From: Streptomyces griseus subsp. griseus
Lineage (GTDB): Bacteria; Actinomycetota; Actinomycetes; Streptomycetales; Streptomycetaceae
Assembly (NCBI RefSeq): GCF_003610995.1
Contig: NZ_CP032543.1
Coordinates: 2,170,001-2,234,000, forward strand
Reading direction: 5' to 3'
Length of the DNA stretch: 64,000 bases
Positions 4,333-23,025 of the stretch are shown here, piece after piece (positions within the stretch are counted from its first letter, which is position 1; every line of letters starts with the position of its first letter). A model generated the notes under the pieces. The model had not been told where the DNA came from. It made no database searches and saw nothing but the letters and a program-made list of their open reading frames with translations. The translations under genes were made by a program, and so were the position numbers.

Positions 4333-4455
4333 GGGGGGAGGGCCTTTCCGGGGGGACGTGCAGATGATGAACCCCTGGAAGACGGGGCGTAAATGAGACG
4401 TCTACAACGGTCTCATGGTTGCACCCCAGTATGGCGTGACACCAATCACAGGATC

Positions 4456-4486
4456 GACCCGCCCCGGGCCCTGGTCGGGGCGGGTC
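4456..4486 (-). terminator. Hairpin terminator after the GT2 gene
   Basis: A 10-bp perfect stem (GACCCGCCCC with GGGGCGGGTC) around an 11-base loop lies 16 bases past the stop of the 4502-5734 gene. There is no T-tract, as usual in Streptomyces. Confidence 0.65.
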
Positions 4487-4501
4487 CGCAGGTGGGCGGC
4501 G

Positions 4502-5734
4502 TCAGACGCGGTGTGCGCGGGGAGCCCGCAGGGCGGTCAGCACCGTACGGCGGGCCTTGCGGACCACGCGCCGGGCGAAGGACACGTGCGGCTTCGGGCG
4601 CGGCGGGTCGATCCGCTTGCCGCCGGCCCATTCGGTGACGGCCACCTCGTAGGCGCTTTCGGGGAGTACGGAACCCTTGCCCGCCTCCTCGAAGTGCGGG
4701 TAGGCCAGGAGGGTCCGGCCGTCCCGGCGGACCACCTCGGGCTGCTTCTTGTCACGGAGGAAGGCCGCGATGTCGAGGAGGAGGTCGAGTCGCCCTTCGG
4801 CGAGGGCGGTGAGCCGCAGCCGCTCGTGGACCTTGAGACGGCGGCCCAGCTCCGGTGTCCAGTAGGCGTCCATCAGGGGGGCGGCGAGCGCCATCTTCTT
4901 CGTGCGGACGGCGGCGGACTGTTTCACCAGTCCGGGTCCGAACTGGGGCAGCAGCGTGATGACGAACGGACGCACCATCAGGGAATCCCGGCGGGGTCCG
5001 GCGGGCACCAGGTCGGCGATGAGCCCCATGAGGGCGCGGGCGGAGTCGAAGCGGCGGGTGTAGCTGCCCTTCTTGGTCATCTGGTTGCGGTCCTCGCGGC
5101 CCACCAGGTAGTAGCAGGTGTAGTCGGCGACGACGGAGACGCCGTTGCCGCGCAGATACGCCTCCATGGTGAACAGGGCGTCCTCGCCGGTCTTCAGCTT
5201 CTCGTCGAAGCGCATGCCGAGCCGTACGAGGAGGTCGCGCCGGAACAGCTTCTGGGCGCTCAGCGTGAATTTGATGTTGGACGCGTAGAGGTCGGCGCGC
5301 TCCACGGTCTCTTTCCACATCGACTTCGCGGCACCGCGGTTGACGCCGACGATCTTTCCGAGGATCACATCCGTGCCCGCCCGGTCCCCCATGGCGACCA
5401 TGCGCTCCAGGGCCTCCTCGCCGAAGTAGTCGTCGGCGTCGAGGAAGAAGACGTACCGGCCGCGGGCGAGCTCCAGGCCGGTGTTCCGCGGGCCGCTGGG
5501 GCCACCGGAATTGGGCTGCCGGACGACGCGCGTGGGGATCGCCGTACGGGCGGCGAACTCTTCCAGGTACTCGCCCGTGCCGTCCGTGGAGCCGTCGTCG
5601 ATCGCGACGATCTCCAGGCGTCCGGCGCCGATCGTCTGGGCCTCCACGGACTCCAGGCACCGGACCAGGTAGGGCATCGCTTCATACGCTCCGATGATCA
5701 CACTGACATCGGGCTCGTGGTTCGTCCTGGGCAT
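4502..5734 (-). CDS. GT2 family glycosyltransferase, teichoic-acid type
   Basis: The 410-residue protein has an N-terminal GT-A fold: VSVIIGAYEAMPYLVRCLES at the start, the nucleotide-binding IDDGSTDGT, QPNSGGPSGPRNTG, and the metal-binding DAD in FFLDADDYFGEEALERMV. The remaining 200 residues are helical with a basic tail. This architecture is that of enzymes decorating or priming wall teichoic acid (TarS/TarP-like or the GT2 half of Streptomyces GT2-glycerophosphotransferase fusions). It is clearly paralogous to the gene at 29646, which has the same GEEALERMV and NSGGP blocks. The ATG at 5734 is preceded by AGGGA at proper spacing, so it is preferred over the GTG at 5749. The sugar donor is not predictable. 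It sits between two polymerase-family genes but is bounded by its own terminators. Confidence 0.85.
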   Translation of the reverse strand: MPRTNHEPDVSVIIGAYEAMPYLVRCLESVEAQTIGAGRLEIVAIDDGSTDGTGEYLEEFAARTAIPTRVVRQPNSGGPSGPRNTGLELARGRYVFFLDADDYFGEEALERMVAMGDRAGTDVILGKIVGVNRGAAKSMWKETVERADLYASNIKFTLSAQKLFRRDLLVRLGMRFDEKLKTGEDALFTMEAYLRGNGVSVVADYTCYYLVGREDRNQMTKKGSYTRRFDSARALMGLIADLVPAGPRRDSLMVRPFVITLLPQFGPGLVKQSAAVRTKKMALAAPLMDAYWTPELGRRLKVHERLRLTALAEGRLDLLLDIAAFLRDKKQPEVVRRDGRTLLAYPHFEEAGKGSVLPESAYEVAVTEWAGGKRIDPPRPKPHVSFARRVVRKARRTVLTALRAPRAHRV

Positions 5735-5820
5735 GTCGTCCCTGCGCACCTGTCGATTTCATCACGAAAGAGGGTGGATTGCCCGACTCTGCACCCTTTT
5801 GTGCTTCGACACGCCGAACG

Positions 5821-5856
5821 ACCCGTACATCCCTCCCTGAGGGGAGACGTACGGGT
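5821..5856 (-). terminator. Hairpin terminator after the 5926-8115 gene
   Basis: ACCCGTAC and GTACGGGT form a perfect 8-bp stem around a purine/pyrimidine loop with further internal pairing (CCCTC/GGGG). It lies about 70 bases past the stop. Confidence 0.6.
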
Positions 5857-5925
5857 CGCCGTCGAGGTTGCCTCATTTTCGGCCAGTTCGATCAGGTGTG
5901 CGCCTGCTGGCCGGTTGTACGTCTG

Positions 5926-8115
5926 TCAGCGCGCCGCCGAGGTGCCCTCGGTGACCGGGCTCTCCGCCTCGCTCTCCACCGCCGCGTCCGGGTCCGCGTC
6001 GGCACCGGCGTCGGCCAGCGCCTCCGGCTCGCCCGTGCCGACACCGCTGGTGACCGCCTCGCTGTCCGGTACGGCCACGGCCTGGTCGCCGATCCGCTGG
6101 GCGACACCGGCGTTGCGGGCCTCGGCCTTGGCGGCGAGCGCCCGTACGGCGGCGTTGAACTGCTCCATGGAGGTCGGCTCGTCCGGGCCCAGGAGATACG
6201 TCTTCAGCTCCCGGCGCGCCCCGGCCAGCGTGTCGGCCGCCGGGTCCGCGACGGCGGCGAGCAGCTCGTCGAGTTCCCCGGCGCCGTTGGAGAGGATGAC
6301 CGCGGCCCGTACGGCGGTGTTCTGCCGCTTGAACTCCTCGGCGCCGAGCCCCGCGGAGTCGGTGACCGCGTACGGCTTGCCGCTCGCGATGAAGTCGGAG
6401 ACCACGCTGGAGATGTCCGAGACCATGGCGTCGGACTCGTTGAAGCAGTCGTACAGCTTGGGCTGCGCGCCCGTCACCGTACGGTGCTCCCACCAGCCGA
6501 AGGAGCGCCAGTAGGCGTCGTTCCAGCCGGCGCGCAGCTGCGCCGCCTCGGCCTCGCGGGCGGGGTCGGCGAGCGAGACCCGCGACTCCTCCGCGTCGTC
6601 CCCGCCGGAGCGGCCCACGGCCGCCAGCTCCGCGAGGCGGGCGTCGATCCGCACCAGCTCGGCCTTGGCGGCGCTGTGGGCGGCGGCGGCCCGCTCGGCC
6701 TCCTTCGCCCAGCGCGGCTCGGCGGCCCGCTCGGTGGCCGCCTTGCCCAGCATGCCCCGGATGCGGGCGTCGACCGCCTTGGCCTTGGCGCTGCGGATGC
6801 CGGTGAAGGGGTGCGGCTTGTAGATGATCCGGACCGGGTCGTCGGCGGCGAGCAGCCGGCGCACGATGTTCTCGCCCGCCAGCAGCAGGGAGGTGTTGCC
6901 GGGGTTGTCGTCCCAGCCCTCCCAGGTGGGGGCGTACAGCACGGTCGGGATGGGGTTCTTGACCGTGCCCGTCCAGCCCTTGATGGGCTCCAGCTGCGGG
7001 CGGCCGACCTCGACGATGTCCTCGTCCCGGACGCCCACGTCGGCCAGCGCGTAGCGGTCGCGGCCGGCCCGGCCGGCCGTCCAGACCTCGTCGTACACCT
7101 TGGAGTACGGGTTGACGCTGGCGAGCTTGTCGCTGTCGCCGTGGCCGATGAAGACGTGCTTCATGGTCGGCACGCGCAGGATGTGGATGTTCTTGCCGAC
7201 GTTGGCCGGATACAGGCAGACCCGGACGGTGGAGAGGTCCAGGTTCATCAGGTGCGTGCCCGCCGGGACGCAGATCACCGGGACGGAGGTCTCGGCCAGC
7301 TGCGGGACCAGTCCGCGCTCGCGCATGACGATCAGCGGCCGGCCCTCGACCCGGGCCATGGTGTCCAGCCACATGTTGCCCTGGTAGGCAGACTCGTTGG
7401 AGCCGGAGAAGTAGAGCACCACGGTCGGCTGGTACTCGCGCAGCCAGGTGTCGACGGCCTTGAGCACGGCGGCGGCCGGGGGCACCAGGGCGCCGCGGCG
7501 TACGTACGGCAGGAGCGCCGCGAGGTAGGCCAGGGCGAGCACCAGGGTGAGGGCGGCGCCGACGTAGCCGACGACGTACTCGCGGGTCCCGGCGGCGATC
7601 AGGATGCCGACCATCGCGGGGATGTCGAGGTGCAGCATCTTCTCGGCGCAGCGGCGCAGCAGCGCACCCGGCGGGGCGTCGGGGATGCGTACGGCGTGCA
7701 GGTCCACGTTGCGGGTGACGACCGGCATGGTGCGGCGGAGCCGGATCAGGGTGGTCAGGGCGCCGTGCGGAGCCTGCAGCCCGTAGAAGAGCAGGAAGGT
7801 GGCGACCGCCGTGTAGAACAGCGGCTCCTCGGCGAGGTCCAGCCGGGCCAGCAGCAGGATGAGCATCAGCTGGCGCAGCAGGAAGCGGATCGGCAGCCCG
7901 GCCCGCACCTTGCTGAGCCGGTTGACCAGATAGCTCCCCCGCTGATGCAGATACCAGTCCGCGGCGTACGTGACAGCCGTGGCCGCCGCGAAGAACCAGA
8001 CGTTCGGAATGAGCGCGGCGAGCATGACGCAGGGATATCCCAGCCCCATCAACAACGCTGCCGCCAGTTCTGACCTGCTGCCCACGCGGGCCAGGCGAAT
8101 GGCTGTCGAAATCAC
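5926..8115 (-). CDS. Membrane CDP-glycerol glycerophosphotransferase-like protein
   Basis: This 729-residue protein starts with several hydrophobic helices (about residues 20-120 and 165-215). A cytoplasmic Glyphos_transf-like domain follows: IGHGDSDKLASVNPYSKVYD, LYAPTWEGW, IIYKPHPFTG and MVSDISSVVSDFIASGKPYA. These correspond to the WHGT, KxH and TDYSS motifs of TagF, and GHGDSDK is the usual replacement in this membrane-anchored actinobacterial subfamily. A charged, Ala/Glu/Arg-rich helical insert of roughly 80-100 residues (about 450-540) separates the KPHP motif from the C-terminal part. The tail is acidic and low-complexity. The GTG start at 8115 has GGAG 12 bases upstream. The likely role is polyol-phosphate transfer or export-linked wall-polymer synthesis. 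Exact substrate and whether it polymerises or primes are unknown. Confidence 0.8.
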   Translation of the reverse strand: MISTAIRLARVGSRSELAAALLMGLGYPCVMLAALIPNVWFFAAATAVTYAADWYLHQRGSYLVNRLSKVRAGLPIRFLLRQLMLILLLARLDLAEEPLFYTAVATFLLFYGLQAPHGALTTLIRLRRTMPVVTRNVDLHAVRIPDAPPGALLRRCAEKMLHLDIPAMVGILIAAGTREYVVGYVGAALTLVLALAYLAALLPYVRRGALVPPAAAVLKAVDTWLREYQPTVVLYFSGSNESAYQGNMWLDTMARVEGRPLIVMRERGLVPQLAETSVPVICVPAGTHLMNLDLSTVRVCLYPANVGKNIHILRVPTMKHVFIGHGDSDKLASVNPYSKVYDEVWTAGRAGRDRYALADVGVRDEDIVEVGRPQLEPIKGWTGTVKNPIPTVLYAPTWEGWDDNPGNTSLLLAGENIVRRLLAADDPVRIIYKPHPFTGIRSAKAKAVDARIRGMLGKAATERAAEPRWAKEAERAAAAHSAAKAELVRIDARLAELAAVGRSGGDDAEESRVSLADPAREAEAAQLRAGWNDAYWRSFGWWEHRTVTGAQPKLYDCFNESDAMVSDISSVVSDFIASGKPYAVTDSAGLGAEEFKRQNTAVRAAVILSNGAGELDELLAAVADPAADTLAGARRELKTYLLGPDEPTSMEQFNAAVRALAAKAEARNAGVAQRIGDQAVAVPDSEAVTSGVGTGEPEALADAGADADPDAAVESEAESPVTEGTSAAR

Positions 8116-8189
8116 GAAGAACCTGCTCCAGGGGGGTGCCGGTTTGATTCACCTATTGAGGGAAATGTGAAGGTGCGGCTTCACGCATA

Positions 8190-8228
8190 CGGGCCTCTGT
8201 GATCGCGCTAAGCGATAACAGAGGCCCG
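8190..8228 (-). terminator. Strong hairpin terminator after the cytidylyltransferase-reductase gene
   Basis: CGGGCCTCTGT pairs with ACAGAGGCCCG, and GATCGC/GCGAT inside extends the stem to about 16 bp around GCTAA. It lies 25 bases past the stop of the gene at 8253 and just upstream of the 8115 gene, so it separates the two units. Confidence 0.75.
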
Positions 8229-8252
8229 AATAAGCACAATTGTCAAGAATTA

Positions 8253-9752
8253 TTACACATCTTCTTGACGGTCCAGCACGGAGGCCAGCGCCTGCTCGAA
8301 ACCGGAGGACGCGGAGGCTCCGGCCGTCGGGTCCTGCTGACGTACGTCGATGACGTGGCCGGTCAGCGCGGAGAGCAGCACGTCCAGCGAGGTGCGCGCC
8401 ACGGCCTCCGAGGAGAGCAGCGAGCCCTCCGGCTCCTGGCCGAACGCCTTGGTGCGCATCGGCGTCGCGGTCCGCTCGGGGTTGACGCAGTTGACGCGGA
8501 TCCCCTCGCCCGCCCACTCGTCGGCGAGCGCCTGGGTCAGGTTGACCATGGCGGCCTTGGTGGAGGAGTAGAGGCTGTACTCGGCGCGGCCGCGGGTGTA
8601 GCTGCTGGAGGTGTAGAGCAGCAACTGGCCCTGGGTCTCGGCGAGGTACTTGTAGGAGGCGCGCGCGATCTGGACGGGGGCCAGGTAGTTGACGTTCAGG
8701 GCTTCCTGGATCGTCGCGTTGTCGGTCTCGGCCAGCTTGCCGATGCGCAGGACGCCCGCGGTGTTGATGACGTAGTCGATACGACCCGTCTCGGCGTACG
8801 CCTTGGAGAGCGCCTCCTCGACGTGCTCGGGGTTCTCCACGTGCGTGCCGGTGGTGGAGCGGCCCAGGGCGTAGACGTCGGCGCCGTAGTTCTCGGCCAG
8901 CGTGGCGATGTCGGCGCCGATCCCGTACGAACCACCGAAGACGACGAGGGTCTTGCCGGAGAGCAGCTCACGGTAGGCAGCCTCGTCGGCCTGGCGCGGG
9001 GCGGCGGTGGAGGCGAGCTGGAAGAGCTTGTCGGTGATGAAGACGTCGACCGGCTGGGTGACCTTCATGTTGTACTCGTCGCCCGCGACCACGTAGATCG
9101 GCACGTCGGGGAGGTACTTGAGGACCACCGAACAGTCGTCGGTCGCCTGGAAGTTGGGGTCCCCCGCCGCGATCGTGTACGCCTTGCGGATCGTGGAGAG
9201 CTTGAACGCCTGCGGGGTCTGGCCGCGGCGCAGCCGGGAGCGGTCGGGGACCTCGGTGATGAACTCCCCGTCGCCGCCGTGGGTGCGGGTCACGATGATC
9301 GTGTCCGCGGACGGGATGGCGACGTCGACGGCGTCGTAGCGGTCGAGGGCGTCGACACAGTCCTTGATCACACGCTGTGACAGCAGGGGGCGCACCGCGT
9401 CATGGAAGAGGACGTTGCGGTCCTCGCCCTCGGCCAAGCCCTCGCCGAGGGCCGCGATGGCACGCTCGGTGGTCTCGTTGCGGGTGTTGCCGCCCTCGAT
9501 GATCCGGGTGACCTTGGTCAGTCCGGCCTTGGCGACGATCTTCTCGACGTCGGGCACGAAACCCGGCGCCATCAGCACGATGACGTCGTCGATGTCCTCG
9601 GCGTTCTCGAAGATGGTCAGCGTGTGCTCGATGACTGCCTTGCCGGCGATCTTCAGCAGCTGCTTGGGGATCGACAGTCCCACGCGCTGACCGGTTCCAC
9701 CGGCGAGCACGACCGCTGTGGTCCGGGGCTTGGCTTCGTGCGGCACAGACAC
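8253..9752 (-). CDS. Bifunctional cytidylyltransferase/SDR oxidoreductase (CDP-ribitol synthesis type)
   Basis: This is a fusion of 499 residues. Residues 10-235 are an IspD/TarI-type cytidylyltransferase with VVLAGGTGQRVGLSIPKQLL, LFHDAVRPLLS and ATDDCSVV. Residues 245-490 are a short-chain dehydrogenase with VVFGGSYGIGADIA for NAD(P) and the catalytic Tyr and Lys of YSLYSSTK. Fusions of this type (for example Haemophilus Acs1/Bcs1) reduce ribulose 5-phosphate to ribitol 5-phosphate and activate it with CTP to CDP-ribitol, the donor for poly(ribitol phosphate) wall teichoic acid. That fits the two polymerase-family genes downstream. The alternative, isoprenoid MEP synthesis, is unlikely because IspD is not fused to an SDR. 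The GTG start at 9752 follows an AAGGTAGG element. Product specificity is inferred from domain order and neighbours. Confidence 0.85.
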   Translation of the reverse strand: MSVPHEAKPRTTAVVLAGGTGQRVGLSIPKQLLKIAGKAVIEHTLTIFENAEDIDDVIVLMAPGFVPDVEKIVAKAGLTKVTRIIEGGNTRNETTERAIAALGEGLAEGEDRNVLFHDAVRPLLSQRVIKDCVDALDRYDAVDVAIPSADTIIVTRTHGGDGEFITEVPDRSRLRRGQTPQAFKLSTIRKAYTIAAGDPNFQATDDCSVVLKYLPDVPIYVVAGDEYNMKVTQPVDVFITDKLFQLASTAAPRQADEAAYRELLSGKTLVVFGGSYGIGADIATLAENYGADVYALGRSTTGTHVENPEHVEEALSKAYAETGRIDYVINTAGVLRIGKLAETDNATIQEALNVNYLAPVQIARASYKYLAETQGQLLLYTSSSYTRGRAEYSLYSSTKAAMVNLTQALADEWAGEGIRVNCVNPERTATPMRTKAFGQEPEGSLLSSEAVARTSLDVLLSALTGHVIDVRQQDPTAGASASSGFEQALASVLDRQEDV

Positions 9753-12616: not shown

Positions 12617-13778
12617 CTGAGGTTGATCTGGTGGAGTCGTAGAGGCTGACGGCTCGCCTTCCCTGCGGTGTCACCGGAGGCATGCAGTATCCACAAGGGG
12701 GCGGGCTGACCCCCGAACGGCACCAGTTCCGCGAGGAGTTACGGCTCAGGGCGGCCGAGCGGTTCGCCCAGGGCACGAGCTCGGTGATCGCCAGGGACCT
12801 GCGGGTCAGCGTCCACTCTGTGCAGCGATGGCGGCAGATGTGGGACGAGGGCGGCCCGCGGGCTCTGCGGTCGCAGGGGCCGGCGTCGCTGCCGAGGCTG
12901 GGCAAGAAGCAGTTCGCCCAGCTGGAGGGGCTGAGCTGGCCGACGCGCCGGCCGCGCACGGCTGGGAGGACCAGCGATGGACGCTCTCGCGGATCAGGAC
13001 GGTGATCGGCCGACGCTTCCATCTGACCTACACCATCCAGGGTGTGCGGAAACTGCTGGTGCGCAGCGGCTGGTCCTGCCAGGTCCCGGCCCGACGCGTC
13101 ATCGAGCGGGACGACGACGCGGTGGCCGGGTGGGTCAAGGAGGTGTGGCCCTGCGCGGAAGACTCGCGGCGGCCCGTGGAGCCTGGCCGGTCTTCGAGGG
13201 CGAAGCCGGATTCTCCATGACGCCCCGCAGGCGAAGACGTTGTCCCAGCGCGGGCGGACCCCGGTGGTGCGGGTCCGCGGCCGTTCCCGCAGGCGGATAG
13301 CCATCGCCGCGCTGGCCTGCTGCAAACCCGGCCGCCGATCCCGGCTGATCTACCGACCACGCCGGGACGACGGCCGCCGCGACGCGCGTAAGAGCTTCTC
13401 CTGGCGCGACTACCGCGACCTGCTGATCGCCGCCCATCAACAGCTCGGCGGCCCGATCGTGCTCTTCTGGGGCAACCTCAACGTCCACAAAGCCGCCGAC
13501 CTCCGAGAGTTCGCCGAGGCACGGGACTGGCTGACCATCCACTACCTGCCGCCCTACGCACCCGACCTCAACCCCGTCGAAGGGATCTGGTCCCTCCTGT
13601 GACGTGGCTGGCTCTCCAACGTCGCCTTCAACACCCCCGAACACCTCATCCAGCGCATCAGACGCGGCCTACGACACGTCCAGTACCGCAGCGACCCCAT
13701 AGGCGGCTGCCTCGCCGAGACCGGTCTGACCAACCGACCCACCTGAGCAACCACGCGACATCACGAGTTCAACCTCAG
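12617..13778 (+). mobile_element. IS630-family insertion sequence, inactive
   Basis: The element is 1162 bp. Its ends are perfect inverted repeats of 10 bp, CTGAGGTTGA (12617-12626) and TCAACCTCAG (13769-13778), with weaker matching beyond. Each end abuts a TA (12615-12616 and 13779-13780), the target duplication expected of IS630/Tc1-type transposition. Size and internal transposase agree with the family. It separates rplU from the AT-rich stretch on its right. Confidence 0.85.
12682..13746 (+). pseudogene. IS630-family transposase, multiply disrupted
   Basis: The N-terminus (ATG at 12682 with GGAGG upstream) is a helix-turn-helix: SSVIARDLRVSVHSVQRWRQ. The DDE domain is then split over all three frames, with shifts near 12930, 13160-13180 and 13215-13225, and a TGA at about 13600 interrupts SLL-RGWLSNVAF. 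Two of the three catalytic acidic residues are also changed: the usual FEDEAG reads FEGEAGFS, and the usual WDNLNVHK reads WGNLNVHK. Only the Glu of PPYAPDLNPVEGIW remains. The gene therefore cannot encode an active transposase even if the frameshifts were sequencing errors. Confidence 0.88.
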
Positions 13779-14168
13779 TAATTCATCGGTAGCTAACTCG
13801 CATTCGACCACCCTCACTTCGCCTGAATTTGCCACTACTTCAATAGCGATATTATCGCGTGTCATGCCGGAGAAGGAAGTGTGGTGTTGAGACTGAACTT
13901 GAAGGCATGAATTTCGCGGGTGAGGCCCAGCACGATCGAACACCTACGGGCTGATTTATTCACTCCGCTAGCGATACCCACGACGGAAAACTGAAAGAGT
14001 CGCATGAATGTACCACCACGTCAGCTATTCCAGACGGGTCGATATCCCCCCTGCAGTTCGGTGAGGCGCATCTGCCACGCAAAAAAATTATTAATGGCCA
14101 GCCCATAAAATCACCGAACAGTATATCTTTCCCCTCAAGAGTGCCACCACTAATTGCACAACTCCCGG
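13779..14168. other. AT-rich non-coding stretch between two insertion sequences
   Basis: About 390 bases have clearly lower GC than the rest of the window, including runs such as AATAGCGATATTATCG and AAAAAAATTATTAATG. No gene is supported. A minus-strand frame starting near 13863 (MTRDNIAIEVVANSGEVRVV) runs directly into the IS630 right end, so it could be the stub of a small gene broken by the insertion, but it lacks a ribosome-binding site. Confidence 0.5.
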
Positions 14169-14250
14169 CTAGTACTCCAGCTGTAGATCTTGATCGCGGT
14201 GCGGCCGCCGCGCGTTGAGCGGCCTCATGCTGGGATGGGCGTCTCGCGGG

Positions 14251-14646
14251 TCATTTACTCGGGATAACGACGTCGATAGCGTTGACATCTGGCCCGGCGT
14301 GTTCACTGCGACGCGTACTTTGAACTGGCCGCGGTCGCCCACTCGGTGCACGAAGCGGGTCTGCTGCTCGACATCGCCGACTGCGATGCGCCCGTCGGGC
14401 AGTCGGAGGGGGCCGTCGAAGACAGTGGTGAACTCCGGGTTCGGGCGTTGGGCCTGATGGATCATCAGGCGATGTGAAGAGACGCACCTTGATCAGCCCT
14501 CTCTGGAGTCGAACCCGGACGGCCACGTGAGTGTCTCAACTGACTGCGGGGGCGGTGTCCAGAGCGAGGGAGAGGGGCACCCAGTCGGTTGCCCCGAGGT
14601 GCAGAACGGGGTGATTGACGTAGATGTCGACGCCGGCGATCTGCAT
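14251..14646 (-). pseudogene. Broken small hypothetical gene inside the IS701-family element
   Basis: The ATG at 14646 has a perfect AGGAGG at good spacing and reads MQIAGVDIYVNHPVLHLGA, but stops at PAVS. Coherent sequence continues in other frames as LRLPDGRIAVGDVEQQTRFV and GDRGQFKVRVAVNTPG, ending PDVNAIDVVIPSK at 14251. The reconstructed protein of about 130 residues is strand-rich and soluble with no signal peptide. I do not recognise the family. It is divergent from the transposase and wholly inside the terminal repeats, so it is either a passenger gene or a host gene trapped by a larger event. Confidence 0.6.
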
Positions 14647-14695
14647 GGTGTTCCTCCTGACCGGTATGGCTGCGGCCACCGTTGATCATCGGTGT

Positions 14696-16016
14696 GTGAA
14701 GACAAACGATCATGTGGTGGCCGCAGGTCACAGCGTAGACCCTGCCCGCTGGCAGGCAGCGTTCGAGGAGCTGATGGGGCGCATAGCCGGACGGTTAGCG
14801 CGGGTGGAGGCCCGGCGCCGGGCGGGACGGCTGGTGCTCGGGCTGCTGTCGGACCTGCCACGCAAGAACTGCTGGACGATCGCCGAGTGGGCCGGGGAAG
14901 CGACACCACACGGCATGCAGCATTTGCTGTGCCGAGCCTCCTGGGACGCCGACGCGGTTCGGGACGACGTACGCGACTACGTCGTGGAGCAGCTGCACGA
15001 TGAGCGGCCAGTCCTCGTCGTCGACGAGACCGGCGACCTGAAAAGGGGCACCCACACGGTCGGGGTTCAGCGTCAGTACACCGGCGCCGCAGGCCGGATC
15101 GAGAACTCTCAGGTCGCTATCTACCTCGTATACGCGGGAGCGCGCGGACACGCGGCGGTGGACCGTGAGCTCTACATCCCGCGTTCGTGGACATGTGAGC
15201 CGGACCGCTGCCGGGCCGCCGGCCTCCCCGAGGACACCGCCTTTGCAACCAAGCCGGAGCTGGCCAGCCGTATGATCGGCCGGTTCCTCGACGCCGGACA
15301 CCGCGTGGACTGGGTCACGGGCGACGAGGTCTACGGCGGCAACCCGCGTCTGCGGACCGCACTGGAAGAGCGTGGGATCGGCTTCGTGTTGGCCGTCGCT
15401 CCTCGGCGGACGTCATCACCGGTGCGGGCAGGTTTCGGGCCGACGCGCTGGCCGCGAAGGTGCCCAACCGGGCCTGGCAGAAGCTGTCGGCCGGGGCCGG
15501 CGCCAAAGGGCACCGCTTTTACGACTGGGCAGTCATCGACTTGGCCGACTCCGGACCGAACCACCACCAACTGCTAATCCGCCGCAACCGCACCACCGGC
15601 CAACGGGCCTACTACCGTTGCTCCTCACCTAATCCGGCACCCCTTGCCACGCTGGTCCGCGTCGCCGCGTCGCCGGGTCGAGGTGGCGAGTTGAGGAGAC
15701 GTTCCAGTCGGGAAAGGGCCTTGCGGGACTGGACGAGCACCAGGTCCGCCGCTTCACCTCCTGGTCGCGCCGGGTCACCCTGGGCATGCTCGCGCACGCC
15801 TTCCTGGCGGTCACCCGTGCCACAGAACATGCCCGCCATCCCGCTCCGGACGGGTTGATCCCGCTCACCTGCAACGAGATCCAGCGGCTGTTCACGGCGC
15901 TCTTTGGACCTGTGCCTGATGCGGTCCACCGGCTGCGCTGGTCCCTCTGGCGGCGCCGCCACCAGGCCCGATCCAGAACCAGCCATTACCACCGGCAAGC
16001 CGCCGATCAGACATGA
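14696..16016 (+). pseudogene. IS701-family (DDE) transposase, frameshifted
   Basis: The protein is recognisable as an IS701-type transposase: LSDLPRKNCWTIAEWAG, the first Asp in VLVVDETGDLKRGTHTVGVQ, the second in VDWVTGDEVYGG, and the Glu in VEETFQSGKGLAGLDEHQ. The frame changes near 15400 (after GFVLAVA) and again around 15650-15700, where the sequence before EETFQ is scrambled. The end is intact, YHRQAADQT with a stop at 16016. GTG at 14696 is the likely start; an upstream ATG at 14624 would overlap the opposing gene. All three catalytic acids survive, so inactivation is by frameshift. Confidence 0.8.
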
Positions 16017-16129: not shown

Positions 16130-16173
16130 GGTATGGGGTACGGCTCACACTTACGTGAGCCGTACCCCATACC
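16130..16173 (-). terminator. Long perfect hairpin terminator after the barstar-family gene
   Basis: A 19-bp perfect stem (16130-16148 with 16155-16173, containing GGTATGGGGTACGGCTCAC) surrounds a six-base loop. It starts 22 bases past the stop at 16195 and closes the toxin-immunity transcript. Confidence 0.85.
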
Positions 16174-16194: not shown

Positions 16195-16638
16195 CTATGC
16201 GTATCTCTGCTGGAGCAAATGTCGAGCGACCAGTTCGGTCTCTGCGGAGACTGCCACATAGATCGACAGTTGTGTGGGTTCTCCGACTGTCGCTTCGGCA
16301 TCGGCCAGGCCTTCCACTAGATCGCACAGAACCCACAGTGCGATTTGGAAGTCCTGCTCGTGACCTTCAGCAGTGCCCGCGTCGGTCCATACGAGAACCA
16401 GGCGGGGAGCTTTCAGCCTGTGGAGACCCTCCCAGAGAGAGTCGGAGAGAGCATCCCAGCTCCGTGAGCTCTCCAGGGGGGGGTCAAGGGGAAGCGACTC
16501 GCGTACAGCGGCAATAAATGTCTGCCTGTCCACTCTTCCGCCGGTCGACAGGGTCAAGGTTGGCGTGTTGTGACTTTTGGCCGTCTCAAGGATGCCGGCC
16601 ACCTCATCGTGCAACACGATCGCGAACTCACTATTCAT
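16195..16638 (-). CDS. Barstar-family immunity protein
   Basis: The 147-residue protein shows the barstar core: TFIAAVRESLPLDPP, then SRSWDALSDSLWEGLHRL, the W-D-A-L-x-D-x-L helix, then APRLVLVWTDA. Barstar inhibits barnase-type RNases by blocking the active site. It begins five bases after the stop of the RNase-toxin gene, so the two are cotranscribed and probably translationally coupled. Such linkage is what an immunity gene needs. ATG at 16638 is the natural start; an upstream in-frame ATG lies inside the toxin gene. It is longer than barstar (about 90 residues) by N- and C-terminal extensions, as in many actinobacterial members. The partner assignment is an inference from adjacency and domain pairing. 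Confidence 0.8.
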   Translation of the reverse strand: MNSEFAIVLHDEVAGILETAKSHNTPTLTLSTGGRVDRQTFIAAVRESLPLDPPLESSRSWDALSDSLWEGLHRLKAPRLVLVWTDAGTAEGHEQDFQIALWVLCDLVEGLADAEATVGEPTQLSIYVAVSAETELVARHLLQQRYA

Positions 16639-16643
16639 GGAAA

Positions 16644-19600
16644 TCACCGAACCCGCACGAAGGGAGGATTTCCAGCATCTCCATAGTGTGTCCATGTGTA
16701 GTAGGTCTCGCCGGTCAGTTTGTCCTTGACCACCCTCAACGCCCCGGCACCACTTCCGTACGGATTGGCCACGCGGTACTCCTCATAAGGAGAATTCTTC
16801 CCTTTGGTACCAGGCAGGTCACCCGCCCAATTCTTGAACTGGGTTCCCCACTTCGTCGCCGTAGGCCCGCCCGGTACCGTTCCGGCATCGATGTGCGCCA
16901 AGGTGTCCTTGAGTCCGGCTTCCTCAGCAGCAGGCAGCTTGCCGGAGATCCATGGAACACATGGCCCCCCAGGTGCGCTACGCGTCAGACTGCGGCTCTG
17001 CGGCTTGACGCATTTCGCGAGCTTCCCTACCCGTGTGGCCTCGACGATGTCGTCGATCTTCTCCAGGCTCTTCAGAGATTTAATTTTGCCAACTGGCAGG
17101 AACGCCATCGCAGCGATCGCACATTTGCCGAGGCTGGGGTCTTTGGCACAGTCCTTGGCATCGTTCAAGCCGAGAACTTCCCATACGATCTCCTTCATCG
17201 CCGGATCAATCGTCGGGAAGACCAACTCATGGCCGGCCAGGGCACAGGGAGGAAGACTGTCCCGATTAATCGATATATAACACTTAGGCTTGTTTTCCTG
17301 ATTCCTTAGACGCTTGCGGAGCTCTGCGGCTTCACGCCGCATCTCGGCTTCTTCCGCTTCTCGTTTGACCGCCACATCCTTCCATGCGGCGCTTGCCAGG
17401 GCGTCGGCTTCATCCTTGCTCTTTCCCGCGTCAAGTGCAGACTGCCGTGCTCCCTCAGCTGATTCCTTCGCCTCGCGTGCCGAGTTGCGTGCGTACTGCG
17501 CCGAGAATTCGGCTTGATCTGCAGATTCTTCTGCGGCGGCCGCGTCCTGGCTGGCGCGATCGGCGGCAGCACGTGCATTGCTGGCGGAGGCTTTGGCCTT
17601 AGTGGCGCTGGCCTCGGCTCGGTCTGCGGCCTTGTTTGCCTCGGACGCGTAGCCTCGGGCTTCCGTGGCACTTTGTGCTGCGGCGTTCCTGGCCTTCTCG
17701 GCGTCGGCTGCGGCGCCGACGGCATCGGCGGCGATCTGCGCGGCAAGATGGCTGTTCTTGCGGGCGTTGGCCGCGATGCTCTGCCCTTCGGCGATGAGGC
17801 GTTCGACCTGGGCCATGTGGTTGCTGGCGAGCTGGTCCTTGCGGTGGGCCATGTACTGGCCGGTCTGGACGAATGTACGGACCTCGTTCGCGGAACCCGC
17901 CAGCGCGATCTTGGCCGCAGACTTCGCCTCGGGACCACCATCGTTGTACGCCTTGCTCGTGGTCACCCGCTCGTCGGCCTGGCGGGCCTCGTACTGGCCG
18001 CTGTTGAGGAACCCAAGCAGTGCCTGAGCACTGCCATCCTCAAGAGCCTTCTTTGCGGCTTCCTTGACTCCCGGGCCACCGTCGTTGGAGAGCTTGGAGA
18101 CCGCGATCCTGTAGTCGGCGTTGGCTGTCCGGTGCTGGCCGGTGGTGTAGAAGTCGAGGATCTGCTGGTCGGTACCCTCGAGCGCTTCGGCCGCCGCAGC
18201 GCGCACAGTCTCGTAAGGACTGGATGACGCGAGGTTGGAGACCTGCTGACGTGTCTCATCAGTGGCCGCCTTGGCCCAGCCGGTCTTCAGATACTCGATC
18301 ACATCTGCGTCAGTACCGGACAGCGCCTGAGCAGCAGCGTCCTGGCGCCACGACCCAAAGTGCTTCAGTGCACGCAACGCCAGCGCGCGCCCCTTTGCGG
18401 CGATAACGGCCTTGTCGGCACCGAGCTTGTCCACGTCGACGGCCAGCGCCTTGGTGTCGTTCTCGATCGCCTTGCCCTCGACAACGGACTTCGCGACCTC
18501 GACGGTGAAGGCTTCGGTGGTGGCCCTCTGCGTCAGAGCCGTCTCAACGCCCGCGTTCGTGCGAGTGGCCAGGTCCTCGGCCTCGGTCTCCCGTGCGACG
18601 TTGAAGGTCTTCTGCGCGGTCGCCACTGCCTTGGTGGCGGAGCCGGCGGCAGTCTTGGCAGCGGCAGCATGCTTCTTGGCCTCCGCCGCTTGATCGGACG
18701 CCTCGCCGGCGTGTTCAGCAGCCCTGTCCGCCGCAACAGCGGCGTTCTCCGCATGCGTGGCAGCCGAATTGGCCGCGTCTCGAGCCTCAGCTGCGGCCGT
18801 GGCCGACTTACGGGCCAGATTCTCCGCAGCGGCGGCCGCCCGGTTTGCCTCTTTGGCGTGACGGCGGGTCTCCGCCGCAGCCGCCCGTGCCTCGGCTGCG
18901 GAGCCTCCAGCGGCGGTCGCGTTGGTAGCGGCTTGATCAGCTGCATCGGCCGCCTTGTCGGCGTTCATGATCGCATTACGCGAGGCAACAACTGCATCTG
19001 CGGCAGCCAGGGACGCCTTAGCGGCCTGTTCTGCGGCCTTGGCGGACCTCTTCGCCAGCTCCCCCGCCTTGCGCGCCTCGGCAGCCTGGTCCCGGGCTGC
19101 CTGCGCCTTGCCCTTGTCCTGACTGGCGGCGTAAGCGGCATTCGACGCCCGGCCGGCCGCAGCTGCGGCCGCGGCCGCAGCGCTCGCAGTCTGCGCTGCG
19201 GCCAGTGCCGCCCGGCGCGCCGCCGCATTGGCCGCGTTGGCCGCGCTGATCGCCTGCTGTGCGGCGGCCGCCGCTGCACGGGCTGCGTCTGCGGCTTGTA
19301 GGGCTTTCACGGTCGCGCGAGTGGCATCGTCCTTGGCGGCCTCAGTCTCCCTGGCGGCCTCCTCCGCAGCCGTCCGAGCGAGCTCCGAAGCCGCTTTGGC
19401 TTTCTCCTTCGCTTCCTCAGCCTTGTCCTTCGCCTGCTCGGCCTGCTGGCCGGCCTTCTCTGCCTGCTTGGTCAGCTGCGCAATCGTGGCGTGCTCCTGG
19501 TCACGGTTGCGCGCGACGAACTGCCCGACCTCCAGGAACTCCACAATGTCATCTGCAGTGCCCCGGAGTGCAAGCTTGGCAGCCGCCTTCACATTCGTGC

Positions 19601-20225
19601 CACCGGAACTGTGGAGCTTCGAGACCTCGACGCGATCGTCAGTCTCCTGAGCCTCGTACTGACCGACCTCCAGGAACTGCTTGACATCCTCCGGTGTGCC
19701 CAGCAGCGCAGCCTTTCCTGCATCCTGGACACCGGGACCACCGAAGTTCACGACCCGGCTGGCCTCCACCCGTTGGTCCTGCTCGAACCAGGCCTTCCAG
19801 CCTGCGTCCAAGAACGTCTCTACATCCTGCTGACTACCCTTCAGCGCGGCCATTGCGGCATCCCGCACCGCCGGGCCACCGGCATTCACCACGCGCGAGA
19901 CATCCACGCGGTCATCAATCCGCTGAATGGCAGGGGCATCCGTAAGGAAGGCCCGGATGTCATCGTCCGTACCCAAAAGGGCTTTCTCGGCAGCCTCCCT
20001 GATGCCCGCACCAGCGTCCAGCCAGTAGCTCACGACCAAGCCACGGTCCGTCACCGGCTGAGCTTCGTCGGACGCAATGGCCTGGGGCGACCCGAGAAGC
20101 GTAGCCGCGAGTACGGCCGAGACCAGGCTGGCACAGGTGGCCCGGCTGACCGAAGAACTTAGCGCCCCTCCTCTACGGGATGCGCGCTTCCTCTCTCTTC
20201 GCCGGAAGAGCAAGAAATTCTTCAT
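16644..20225 (-). CDS. Secreted ALF-repeat/coiled-coil polymorphic toxin with C-terminal barnase-like RNase
   Basis: The 1193-residue protein starts with a basic, Sec-type signal peptide (about 1-51, ending LLGSPQAIA). Four ALF-type repeats of about 46 residues follow (70-250; for example GPAVRDAAMAALKGSQQDVE), then an extreme Ala/Glu/Lys coiled coil (250-570), a second set of four repeats (620-800), a second coiled coil (800-960) and a Cys-containing pre-toxin region. The last 50 residues match guanyl-specific RNases (barnase/RNase Sa): candidate catalytic Glu1149 in YEEYRV, Arg1164 in GALRVV and His1180 in YYTWTHYGD. The ATG at 20225 follows AGAGGA. Coupling to a barstar-family gene downstream supports a contact or secreted toxin used between bacteria. 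The repeats are likely structural, reaching from the cell surface. Target and delivery are inferred. Confidence 0.82.
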   Translation of the reverse strand: MKNFLLFRRRERKRASRRGGALSSSVSRATCASLVSAVLAATLLGSPQAIASDEAQPVTDRGLVVSYWLDAGAGIREAAEKALLGTDDDIRAFLTDAPAIQRIDDRVDVSRVVNAGGPAVRDAAMAALKGSQQDVETFLDAGWKAWFEQDQRVEASRVVNFGGPGVQDAGKAALLGTPEDVKQFLEVGQYEAQETDDRVEVSKLHSSGGTNVKAAAKLALRGTADDIVEFLEVGQFVARNRDQEHATIAQLTKQAEKAGQQAEQAKDKAEEAKEKAKAASELARTAAEEAARETEAAKDDATRATVKALQAADAARAAAAAAQQAISAANAANAAARRAALAAAQTASAAAAAAAAAGRASNAAYAASQDKGKAQAARDQAAEARKAGELAKRSAKAAEQAAKASLAAADAVVASRNAIMNADKAADAADQAATNATAAGGSAAEARAAAAETRRHAKEANRAAAAAENLARKSATAAAEARDAANSAATHAENAAVAADRAAEHAGEASDQAAEAKKHAAAAKTAAGSATKAVATAQKTFNVARETEAEDLATRTNAGVETALTQRATTEAFTVEVAKSVVEGKAIENDTKALAVDVDKLGADKAVIAAKGRALALRALKHFGSWRQDAAAQALSGTDADVIEYLKTGWAKAATDETRQQVSNLASSSPYETVRAAAAEALEGTDQQILDFYTTGQHRTANADYRIAVSKLSNDGGPGVKEAAKKALEDGSAQALLGFLNSGQYEARQADERVTTSKAYNDGGPEAKSAAKIALAGSANEVRTFVQTGQYMAHRKDQLASNHMAQVERLIAEGQSIAANARKNSHLAAQIAADAVGAAADAEKARNAAAQSATEARGYASEANKAADRAEASATKAKASASNARAAADRASQDAAAAEESADQAEFSAQYARNSAREAKESAEGARQSALDAGKSKDEADALASAAWKDVAVKREAEEAEMRREAAELRKRLRNQENKPKCYISINRDSLPPCALAGHELVFPTIDPAMKEIVWEVLGLNDAKDCAKDPSLGKCAIAAMAFLPVGKIKSLKSLEKIDDIVEATRVGKLAKCVKPQSRSLTRSAPGGPCVPWISGKLPAAEEAGLKDTLAHIDAGTVPGGPTATKWGTQFKNWAGDLPGTKGKNSPYEEYRVANPYGSGAGALRVVKDKLTGETYYTWTHYGDAGNPPFVRVR

Positions 20226-20383: not shown

Positions 20384-20444
20384 TCATCAGCGTGATTACC
20401 TTGTGGTCACATTTGCTTCACATGCCATCTCATGCGAGGAATCC

Positions 20445-20963
20445 ATGTCGACAACCCCCGCCCGAAAGACTCTTCTTGCCGGTTTGACGGCTGCCCTTGT
20501 GCTGGGCATCGGCGCCACCGCACTGGCCCTCCCAAGGACGGCACCCGGCGCCGAGCGGGCCGCCGTGTCTGCCGACGAAGTACCCCTCGTGGTCGAGGAC
20601 TTCATCCACCCTGGCGCCGCAAGACTGCTCCAGGAGCGCGGAATCACCCTTAAGCGCGGGGACGGACACATCTGGCTCACCGATGTGACCAGCCTCGATG
20701 AATGCGTCGACGGCTCGAACATCGCGATCGAGGCACGCAAGGGCGTCTACTGCTTCAATGCCAGCTCCAAGTCCGGCTACTTGACCCTCGAGCTACCCGA
20801 CACCTTCAACATTTGGACTCAGGACCACCCCGTCAGGGCCACCCTGACCGCCGAGGGCAGGAAGACCGTCGTCAATGCCCCGGCCGACGACCTTACGTCA
20901 GTCGGCGAAGCCGGTGACACAGGTCAGCGTTCGGCACTCGTCGAGATTCGCATCACTGGTTGA
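20445..20963 (+). CDS. Small secreted protein of unknown function
   Basis: The 172-residue protein starts at ATG 20445 with GAGGAA six bases upstream. It has a clear signal peptide (KTLLAGLTAALVLGIGATAL, cleavage near ALALP). The mature part includes HPGAARLLQERGITLKRGDG, two cysteines (ECVDG and GVYCFNA) that may pair, and KSGYLTLELPDTFNIW. Its composition suggests a small beta-rich exported domain. I recognise it as the type of secreted hypothetical protein common in Streptomyces but know no function. It is divergent from the toxin gene and lies upstream of the FG-GAP pseudoprotease gene on the same strand, with 211 bases between them. Confidence 0.75.
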   Translation: MSTTPARKTLLAGLTAALVLGIGATALALPRTAPGAERAAVSADEVPLVVEDFIHPGAARLLQERGITLKRGDGHIWLTDVTSLDECVDGSNIAIEARKGVYCFNASSKSGYLTLELPDTFNIWTQDHPVRATLTAEGRKTVVNAPADDLTSVGEAGDTGQRSALVEIRITG

Positions 20964-21174
20964 TACCAGACCGGTAGGGCATCCACGTGCTCTCCAGCAC
21001 CCTCAGAGACATCTCCGTGCTGAGCCAACCCCTGAGCGAAAGCAGTTTGCTGATCACTGTGGAACGCACCCGCTCTGCCCCCGGCGCAACGTCTGATTCA
21101 GGACACCAACACGCTGACCACGCCCGCCAAACGAGTCCCACTGCCCCCTCAGCTCAACCTGCCAAGGAACACAT

Positions 21175-23025
21175 GTGAACATCCACTCTACCCGCCGTGT
21201 GCGGGGCACAGCTCTGCTCGCGGTTGTCGCCGCAGCGGGTGCGTTGACCGCTACTTCCCCGGCGCAGGCCGTGGTCGGTGACCCGGTCGCCAACGGCTCG
21301 TACGCGTTCACCGCGAAGCTGGACATCGGTGAGGGCGATGCGAAGCGCGCCTGTACCGGTTCTCTGGTCGATGCCCAGTGGGTTCTGACCGCGAGCAGTT
21401 GCTTCGCGGGGGCAGGGCAGGCCGCGTTCCCTCTTCCGGCGGGTGCTCCGGCGTTGAAGACCACTGCGACGATCGGCCGTACGAACCTGACGGGTACGGG
21501 TGGCAAGGTCGTCCAGGTCACCGAGCTGGTCTCGCGTACGGATCGTGATCTGGTGATGGCGAAGCTGGCACAGCCGGTCACCGACATCGCTTCGGTGTTG
21601 CTCGCGGACTCCGCTCCGGTGGCGGGCGAGAGCCTGCGGGCGGTGGGTTACGGGCGTACGGCGACGTCCTGGGTTCCCGACCGGCTGCACGCGGGCACTT
21701 TCGCGGTGAGCGCGACCGGTTCGACGACTGTCGCGGTCGAGCGTGCGGGCGGGGCGATCTGCAAGGGTGACGCGGGCGGTCCCGCACTGCGTGAGCAGGA
21801 CGGGAGAGTTCTGCTGGCCGCTGTCCACAGCGCCTCCTGGCAGGCCGGCTGCTTCAACTCCGACGAGACCCGCGGCGGAGCCGTGGAGACCCGTACCGAC
21901 GACATCACCGACTGGGTGACCCAGGTCCGCGGCCTGCCGCAGGGCTCCCAGGTCGCCTCCGGCGACTTCAACGGCGACGGCCGCGAGGACATCGCCGCCT
22001 TCTACGACAACGGCACCTCCGTCGAGGGCAAGAACAGGGCCTCGCTGTTCGCCTTCTACAGCAACGGCACCGGCTTCGCCGCACCGAAGAACGTTTGGTC
22101 CACCCCGGGTGGCTTCACCTGGAGCAAGAGCCAGCTGACCTCCGGAGACTTCGACGGTGACGGCAAGGACGACATCGCCGTCTTCTACGACAGCGGCTCC
22201 TCCGACACCGGCCAGGTCTCCTCGATCTACACCTTCACCAGCACCGGATCCGGCTTCAGCGCTCCGAAGCAGACCTGGACCACGCCCGGTGGCTTCACCT
22301 GGAGCAAGAGCAAGGTCACCTCGGGCGACTACAACGGTGACGGCAAGGACGACATCGCCGTCCTCTACGACGGGGGCTCGTCCGAGACCGGCCAGGTGTC
22401 CTCGCTCTACACGTTCAACAGCACCGGAACCGGATTCGCCAACCCGCGCAAGACCTGGACCAGCACCGGCGGCTTCACCTGGTCGGCCGGCCAGGTGACC
22501 TCGGGCGACTACAACAAGGACGGCAAGGACGACGTCGCCGTCCTCTACAACGGCGGCAGGTCGGCCGACGGCAAGTTCATCTCGTCGCTCTACACGTTCA
22601 ACAGCAACGGGACCGCCTTCGACAACCCGCGCAAGTCCTGGACCAGCACCGGCTCCTTCAACTGGAACGCCACCAAGCTGACCTCCGGCGACTACAGCGG
22701 GGACGGCCGGGACGACGTCGCCGTCCTCTACAACCGGGGCACGACGGAGGCGGGCGTGCACCAGTCCGCGCTCTTCACCTTCACGAGCAACGGCACCGAC
22801 TTCGGCGCACCCCGCGAGGTGTGGACCAGCACCGGGTCATTCTCCTGGGCGGCCGGCCAGCCCGTGTCCGGTGACTTCGACAAGGACGGCAAGTCCGATG
22901 TCGGCGTCCTCTACCGCACCGGCACCTCCCCCGACGGCCGGCGGATCGACTCGCTGTTCTCCTTCATCAGCACCGGCACCGGCATCAAGGCGCCGGTGAA
23001 GCACTGGACCGGCAGCGTCGTCTGA
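21175..23025 (+). CDS. Secreted FG-GAP repeat protein with a catalytically dead trypsin-like domain
   Basis: This 616-residue protein has a signal peptide ending near ATSPAQA (residue 32). A chymotrypsin-fold (S1) domain covers about 33-250. The catalytic Asp is kept (Asp125 in DRDLVMAKL), but the His of the usual TAAHC motif is Ser75 (LTASSCF) and the Ser of GDSGGP is Ala200 (CKGDAGGPAL). It therefore should not cleave peptides. Residues 255-616 hold six FG-GAP/VCBS repeats of about 60 residues, each with a calcium-type DxDxDG loop such as DFNGDGREDIA and DYNGDGKDDIAVLYD, probably forming a beta-propeller. The GTG at 21175 follows AAGGAA. It is likely a surface binding protein; ligand unknown. 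It is convergent with the genes at 23806 onward. Confidence 0.85.
   Translation: MNIHSTRRVRGTALLAVVAAAGALTATSPAQAVVGDPVANGSYAFTAKLDIGEGDAKRACTGSLVDAQWVLTASSCFAGAGQAAFPLPAGAPALKTTATIGRTNLTGTGGKVVQVTELVSRTDRDLVMAKLAQPVTDIASVLLADSAPVAGESLRAVGYGRTATSWVPDRLHAGTFAVSATGSTTVAVERAGGAICKGDAGGPALREQDGRVLLAAVHSASWQAGCFNSDETRGGAVETRTDDITDWVTQVRGLPQGSQVASGDFNGDGREDIAAFYDNGTSVEGKNRASLFAFYSNGTGFAAPKNVWSTPGGFTWSKSQLTSGDFDGDGKDDIAVFYDSGSSDTGQVSSIYTFTSTGSGFSAPKQTWTTPGGFTWSKSKVTSGDYNGDGKDDIAVLYDGGSSETGQVSSLYTFNSTGTGFANPRKTWTSTGGFTWSAGQVTSGDYNKDGKDDVAVLYNGGRSADGKFISSLYTFNSNGTAFDNPRKSWTSTGSFNWNATKLTSGDYSGDGRDDVAVLYNRGTTEAGVHQSALFTFTSNGTDFGAPREVWTSTGSFSWAAGQPVSGDFDKDGKSDVGVLYRTGTSPDGRRIDSLFSFISTGTGIKAPVKHWTGSVV
21937..23010 (+). 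repeat. Six tandem DNA repeats encoding the FG-GAP units
   Basis: Units of about 180 bases recur with high nucleotide similarity, especially GACGGCAAGGACGAC and ACCTGGAGCAAGAGC. The second and third units are nearly identical over long stretches, suggesting recent internal duplication and possible copy-number change. Confidence 0.7.

Follow-up and report, generated by a model that had tools for sequence, protein, structure and literature searches.

A Streptomyces griseus umbrella-toxin locus with a predicted RNase Sa type tip and a barstar-family immunity gene

Introduction

In a 64,000-nucleotide stretch of the Streptomyces griseus subsp. griseus genome (contig NZ_CP032543.1, positions 2,170,001 to 2,234,000; hereafter the window, in whose numbering all positions are given) two minus-strand open reading frames (ORFs) are separated by 5 nt: one of 1193 residues at 16644-20225 and one of 147 residues at 16195-16638. 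An earlier note made from the sequence alone read the long protein as a Sec-exported toxin with ALF repeats, coiled coils and a barnase-like RNase at its end, and the short protein as its barstar-like immunity partner. This raises the question whether such a protein acts on its own or as part of a larger particle, and what its C-terminal tip and the gene behind it do.

Umbrella toxins, secreted weapons of Streptomyces against competitors, provide the frame for an answer. As described in Nature in 2024 (PMC11062931), the ALF repeats of the protein UmbC form a ring that scaffolds lectin spokes made of UmbB and UmbA, and its coiled coils form a stalk. Here and below, statements on this paper, on PMC13274773 and on PMC3482391 refer to passages of them. 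We found a complete umbrella-toxin locus in the window, with umbC and umbD on the minus strand, umbB and umbA on the plus strand and no stop within the reading frames. Very probably it encodes one umbrella-toxin particle with an RNase Sa type tip and a barstar-family UmbD that protects the producer. This reading builds on the homology of the four proteins, the gene order, the RNase fold of the modelled tip, its Glu/Arg/His set and the linkage of tip and inhibitor genes in other genomes. The locus is a new member of a published kind rather than a new system.

Results

The UmbC homologue and its divergent partner genes

The following features were located:

16644-20225, minus strand: umbC homologue, 1193 residues, matching PDB chain 8w20_A over residues 8-1113 (E 2.4e-259); in order a signal region, four ALF repeats, a coiled coil, four ALF repeats, a coiled coil, a pre-toxin segment and the RNase tip
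19512-20036, minus strand: ALF repeats 1-4 (19938-20036, 19794-19910, 19650-19772, 19512-19634), PF03752 over the cut-off
18456-19508, minus strand: first Ala-rich, putative coiled-coil (stalk) segment, about residues 240-590, boundaries by eye, aligned to the UmbC1 chain
17847-18389, minus strand: ALF repeats 5-8 (18267-18389, 18132-18251, 17985-18110, 17847-17969), PF03752 over the cut-off
17286-17828, minus strand: second Ala-rich, putative coiled-coil segment, about residues 800-980, boundaries by eye, aligned to the UmbC1 chain
16647-16970, minus strand: predicted RNase Sa type C-terminal toxin domain, residues 1086-1193, by PF00545 and Foldseek
16195-16638, minus strand: umbD, barstar-family immunity gene, 147 residues, starting 5 nt past the umbC stop
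16130-16173, minus strand: 19-bp inverted repeat with a 6-nt loop, 3' of umbD, terminator-like, lacking a T-run
20445-20963, plus strand: umbB homologue, adaptor, matching PDB chain 8w20_B (E 5.1e-34)
21175-23025, plus strand: umbA homologue with a trypsin-like domain and FG-GAP repeats, a presumed lectin-type propeller, matching PDB chains 9oee_A and 8w20_C

When the full-length protein was searched against the PDB sequences, chain 8w20_A was the one distinct match at E ≤ 0.01. We take this chain to be UmbC of the umbrella particle solved by cryo-electron microscopy, and it fits the description in the paper. NCBIfam returned no match for the protein; Pfam detected eight ALF stretches in two blocks of four (258.6 bits). 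The alanine content amounted to 43% over residues 241-560 and to 36% over residues 801-960. This composition, together with the alignment to the UmbC1 chain, suggests that both segments are coiled coils. The ORF, Pfam and repeat analyses bore out the coordinates of the earlier note, its eight ALF repeats in two fours, the 5-nt gap to the barstar-family gene and the 19-bp hairpin. At the N-terminus an arginine-rich n-region and a hydrophobic segment are visible by eye and make up a signal-type start. These features do not tell Sec from Tat export, and UmbC proteins are reported to carry TAT signals (PMC11062931), which leaves the Sec assignment of the note unproven.

The span covered by the note ended short of two genes at 20403-23025 that diverge from umbC. 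The frame at 20403-20963 matched the UmbB-sized chain 8w20_B, and Pfam gave no match for it. The mechanically called ORF begins at GTG 20403; the likely start is ATG 20445. The product of the second gene matched chains 9oee_A (E 2.8e-76) and 8w20_C (E 3e-70). Pfam assigned to it a trypsin-like domain (PF00089) and FG-GAP repeats (PF13517 and PF01839), the latter presumably folding into a lectin-type propeller. The same UmbA protein scored 240.9 bits against the NCBIfam model of the fusidic acid esterase FusH, for which the cut-off is 999. In the PDB, UmbA chains are named secreted esterase, an annotation that may mislead.

The number of spokes can be approached from the ALF repeats. ALF6 carries a Gln where ALF2, 3, 4, 7 and 8 have Val or Ile. 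The substitution I4Q in ALF2 abolishes UmbB1 binding (PMC11062931), and by our reading of the position numbering the Gln of ALF6 would occupy the same position. Because of this correspondence five spokes are predicted, with the ALF6 Gln as the sole support from this locus.

A predicted RNase Sa type fold at the tip of UmbC

For the C-terminal end of UmbC, Pfam reported the Ribonuclease family PF00545 over residues 1099-1183 with 27.1 bits at a cut-off of 24. The AlphaFold model of residues 1086-1193 had a predicted local distance difference test score (pLDDT) of 88.2. Compared with the PDB by Foldseek it placed RNase Sa2, Sa3 and Sa on top (best E 2.2e-5, RNase Sa2), and 20 PDB chains matched at E ≤ 0.001, with an identity of 28-32% to the RNase Sa group in these fold alignments. 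By sequence, the PDB entry closest to the tip was RNase Sa3. Glu1149, Arg1164 and His1180, which correspond to tip residues 64, 79 and 95, aligned with the residue set of RNase Sa3 and Sa and were invariant in 20 of 20 aligned sequences including that of the window. We presume that this set is catalytic, as in the RNase Sa group.

Fold and residue set make the tip a predicted RNase Sa type enzyme with guanyl specificity. Structure prediction of the C-terminus yielded the RNase fold on which the note had staked its proposal, and the three residues it had picked out recurred in the alignment. In the host genome this tip was the single PF00545 match at E ≤ 0.001, and the adjacent UmbD likewise the single match of the Barstar family PF01337.

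UmbD and the hairpin behind it

PF01337 matched UmbD over residues 27-114 with 27.7 bits at a cut-off of 23.4; the PF00545 and PF01337 matches thus pass their curated cut-offs by 3-4 bits only. In an alignment of the UmbD family (A2) all 32 sequences matched PF01337 at E ≤ 0.01. The DxxxD motif, named for Imm-Barstar (PMC3482391), was present in this alignment (n = 32), with Asp62 in at least 90% of the sequences and Asp66 invariant.

Structure comparison gave an ambiguous picture. The UmbD model had no Foldseek match in the PDB at E ≤ 0.001, the top rows being ORC, Lon and other ATPases, and in VIA-align barstar chains appeared at ranks 46, 49 and 50, under P-loop ATPases. We read these matches as a generic alpha/beta arrangement and base the proposed barstar-family assignment on Pfam. 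Searches of the PDB with the UmbD sequence and with its profile matched no barstar, and NCBIfam gave no match for UmbD.

The arms of the hairpin (16130-16148 and 16155-16173) form an inverted repeat that is exact over 19 bp, and 85 nt around it fold at -45.6 kcal/mol (z -7.2). Even with 2 mismatches allowed, the arm occurs at this one place in the genome, and a dispersed repeat is rejected on this ground. The hairpin has no T-run, a feature that the terminator scan requires, and is absent from the output of that scan; we therefore keep it as a terminator-like element only. Further out on the umbD side, at 12682-15577, lie two transposase remnants: an IS630-like gene that is divided between two frames, and a gene of the IS701 family that matches its model only in part.

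Tip and inhibitor travel together between carriers

A scan for the tip family with two short motifs, one genome per species, gave 20 named loci, four of which are contigs of metagenome-assembled genomes (MAGs). The record titles comprise Streptomyces, Prauserella, Methylomonas, Sphingomonas, Marinobacter, Rhizobacter, Brenneria, Variovorax and Paenibacillus among others, in addition to the four MAGs. According to Pfam, the proteins that carry the tip in these loci are of several types:

ALF repeats, 4 of 20 (L040-L043)
RHS repeats, 7 of 20 (L044-L046, L048-L050, L058; L048 weak)
CDI-type DUF637 hemagglutinin domain, 2 of 20 (L055, L056)
ribonuclease domain only, 4 of 20 (L047, L051, L053, L054; L051 under the cut-off)
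ribonuclease and a transposase fragment, 1 of 20 (L057)
no Pfam match at E ≤ 0.001, 2 of 20 (L052, L059)

The ALF-type (UmbC) carriers occur in Streptomyces, the RHS carriers in Actinobacteria, Proteobacteria and Paenibacillus, and the CDI-type carriers in Variovorax.

In all 20 loci a barstar-like frame follows the tip directly downstream on the same strand. This was obtained from a six-frame translation of 281,641 bases into frames of at least 50 residues, in which neither the UmbD profile nor UmbD alone matched any other barstar-like frame at E ≤ 0.01. A narrow rule on the fragment start was passed by 14 of the 20 loci with either query. In the other six (L040, L042, L044, L047, L055, L058) the stop-to-stop fragment is in a frame other than that of the carrier; it starts 75-189 nt ahead of the carrier stop and extends 401-443 nt past it. 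We counted these as directly downstream, and a separate scan of the downstream sequence likewise gave a same-strand hit in all 20 loci. One member of the profile, P0044 from S. zingiberis, is probably the gene of locus L041 itself; the search with UmbD alone is independent of it. The tip-inhibitor cassette is thus mobile across carrier types. At L057 (7842-8243) the tip domain lies in a short frame together with the transposase fragment PF01609, a possible instance of cassette movement.

Three of the four ALF-carried loci (L040, L041, L043) have both UmbA and UmbB nearby, and the fourth, L042, has neither within its flank. In L040 (S. lilacinus, about 4042-8321) the umbC homologue appears to be interrupted, the N-terminal match and the C-terminal ORF being separate. 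A tip search of 120 genomes, the host genome and 119 relatives, gave a match in 58, and ALF was found in 43 of an equal number of genomes. Outside the host genome none of the tip matches listed exceeded 36.8 bits, and the open frames that contain them have 139-485 residues; these weak matches probably represent free RNases that are secreted, and not UmbC.

Stalk and tip have different relatives

Among 7989 scored candidates 581 relatives of the UmbC core were found, of which 120 were listed. Together with the UmbC of the window, the last 100 residues of these 120 proteins fell into 33 clusters, and the tip of the window was common to only 2 of the 120. The closest listed core relatives, P0131 and P0132 (77% and 76% identical), have another tip. 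The closest tip, that of P0003 (75% identical; the corresponding record is L040), sits on a core with 48% identity to the window UmbC at residues 507-997 and 56% at residues 10-310. The histories of stalk and tip are therefore separate, which is what one expects of polymorphic toxins.

The pre-toxin HINT domain PF07591 had no match in the window UmbC at E ≤ 1. Of the 120 core relatives listed, 117 carry it, so that the layout of the window is a minority one; L041 and L042 likewise combine ALF repeats with the absence of HINT.

The host genome holds a second umbrella locus (L009, C1:6744000-6753500) with umbA, umbB, umbC and a candidate immunity gene. Its UmbC core is 73% identical to that of the window over 999 aligned residues and carries a HINT domain. 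The tip of the window used as query had no match there. Neither the tip nor the candidate immunity gene of L009 received a Pfam or NCBIfam name, the UmbC matching only ALF and HINT/intein-type models. The tips of P0131 and P0132 are closely similar to that of L009. Outside the two loci the host genome gave no additional UmbB or UmbA match at E ≤ 0.001.

A 196-residue protein of Streptomyces sp. NPDC059759 (P0016) joins the two ends of the system directly: residues 1-80 match the UmbC pre-toxin segment 986-1065 (76%) and residues 81-196 match UmbD (60%), the toxin domain being absent. This may be a natural remnant in which the tip is gone and the immunity domain has stayed.

Discussion

Alternative readings of the locus

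The note had regarded the long ORF as a stand-alone toxin of a new architecture, exported by Sec, for which the ALF repeats and coiled coils alone would be the delivery stalk. Signal region, repeats and toxin are indeed all found in a single ORF, and no UmbA or UmbB was found within the flank of the ALF-carried locus L042. The homologues of these two proteins, however, lie divergently beside umbC, and the other three of the four ALF-carried homologous loci have both. The adjoining partner genes rule the stand-alone toxin out, and we give it hardly any weight. Delivery by ALF repeats and coiled coils was right in outline, given the ring and stalk of PMC11062931, and the partners UmbB and UmbA had been missed. 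The note also knew of no characterised toxin with such a layout; UmbC is characterised, with the structures 8w20 and 8w22 solved.

Other alternatives concern the tip, its inhibitor and the target. An identity of only 28-32% to the RNase Sa group would be compatible with an RNase that has degenerated or lost its catalysis and is retained for binding, but the constancy of Glu, Arg and His and the conservation of the barstar-like frame, each in 20 of 20, make this most improbable. The barstar-family gene might inhibit another cellular or secreted RNase and lie next to the tip incidentally. Such genes occur in other genomes as well, a control search having matched Escherichia coli and Bacillus subtilis, and the comparison of the UmbD and barstar folds is ambiguous. 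Yet the host genome contains no other PF00545 match at E ≤ 0.001, and the tip-barstar linkage spans several phyla and carrier types, so we consider an incidental neighbour extremely unlikely. Finally, the particle may be aimed at non-bacterial cells such as fungi or protists, given that an RNase of this kind could act on any cytoplasm and that RNase Sa3 is entitled cytotoxic microbial ribonuclease in its PDB entry. The umbrella particles described inhibit Streptomyces species (PMC11062931, PMC13274773), however, and from the presence of a cognate immunity gene it follows that the cells endangered include bacteria, which leaves a non-bacterial target with very little probability. The toxin-immunity pair of the note stands as regards fold, Glu/Arg/His residues and linkage in 20 of 20 loci; RNase activity and its inhibition by UmbD are predictions from sequence and model.

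A proposed particle with an RNase tip

For the favoured umbrella-toxin particle, secretion, assembly, spoke number, glycan binding, entry, killing and inhibition are taken by analogy from the published system. UmbC (16644-20225) would provide the ALF ring and the coiled-coil stalk with the RNase Sa type RNase at the distal tip. UmbB (20445-20963) would sit on five of the eight ALF repeats and hold UmbA (21175-23025), whose FG-GAP propeller would act as a lectin that recognises a surface glycan of the competitor. The RNase tip would then enter the target cell and cut its RNA, while the producer would be protected by binding of UmbD to the RNase.

How tips that act in the cytoplasm cross the target membrane is stated as an open question in PMC11062931. 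The tip and immunity pair of the window come from families whose biochemistry is well understood (RNase Sa, barstar), and as RNA cleavage is easily measured, the locus is a convenient model for this question. If HINT normally releases the tip, which is an assumption, a HINT-less UmbC must deliver its tip by another route, and umbrella-toxin entry would become open to direct comparison. The HINT-less junction can naturally be set against the second UmbC of the host genome, which bears HINT. More tentatively, and with doubt prevailing, umbrella particles and the very different delivery machines of RHS and CDI type might draw on one common pool of toxins for their tips, in this case without the usual HINT.

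Comparison with known systems

The closest system with a solved structure is Umb1 of Streptomyces coelicolor (PDB 8w20, 8w22; PMC11062931). The window shares with it the UmbC homology over residues 8-1113, the UmbB and UmbA homologues, the two four-ALF blocks, the Gln in ALF6 and an immunity gene directly downstream. The tips differ: Umb1 carries a cytosine deaminase paired with an Imm1 protein, whereas the window carries an RNase Sa type tip paired with the barstar family. Also, no HINT was detected in the window UmbC, while 8w20_A bears in the PDB the name intein C-terminal splicing domain-containing protein, which suggests one in UmbC1.

For S. griseus a single umbrella particle with a predicted RNase toxin domain has been described (PMC13274773, Figure S3 legend); like the window, it has a tip of RNase type that is directly followed by an immunity gene. 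In contrast to the window its UmbA is encoded elsewhere, and the RNase family is unnamed in the passages concerned. This particle was not among the 20 loci of our tip scan (two short motifs, one genome per species).

RNase Sa, Sa2 and Sa3 are free secreted enzymes. The tip of the window shares with these guanyl-specific RNases (PF00545) the fold and the Glu/Arg/His set and differs in that it ends a 1193-residue particle protein with an inhibitor-family gene adjoining. The pairing of a barnase-type toxin cassette with a barstar immunity gene is known from polymorphic toxins as Tox-Barnase/Imm-Barstar (Zhang et al. 2012, PMC3482391); its row there gives RHS repeats, not ALF, which stands in other rows, so that the paper contains both 'ALF repeats' and 'barstar'. 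Neither umbrella paper (PMC11062931, PMC13274773) uses the words barnase, barstar or ribonuclease in its main text. No paper among the matches listed combined an umbrella term with barnase or barstar, and PMC13392607 and PMC11796102 name umbrella toxins in their reference lists only. Already known are thus the structurally solved kind, an RNase-type tip predicted for the S. griseus particle and the barnase-barstar cassette as a pair; what the window may add is an RNase Sa type tip with a barstar on a HINT-less UmbC of the minority layout.

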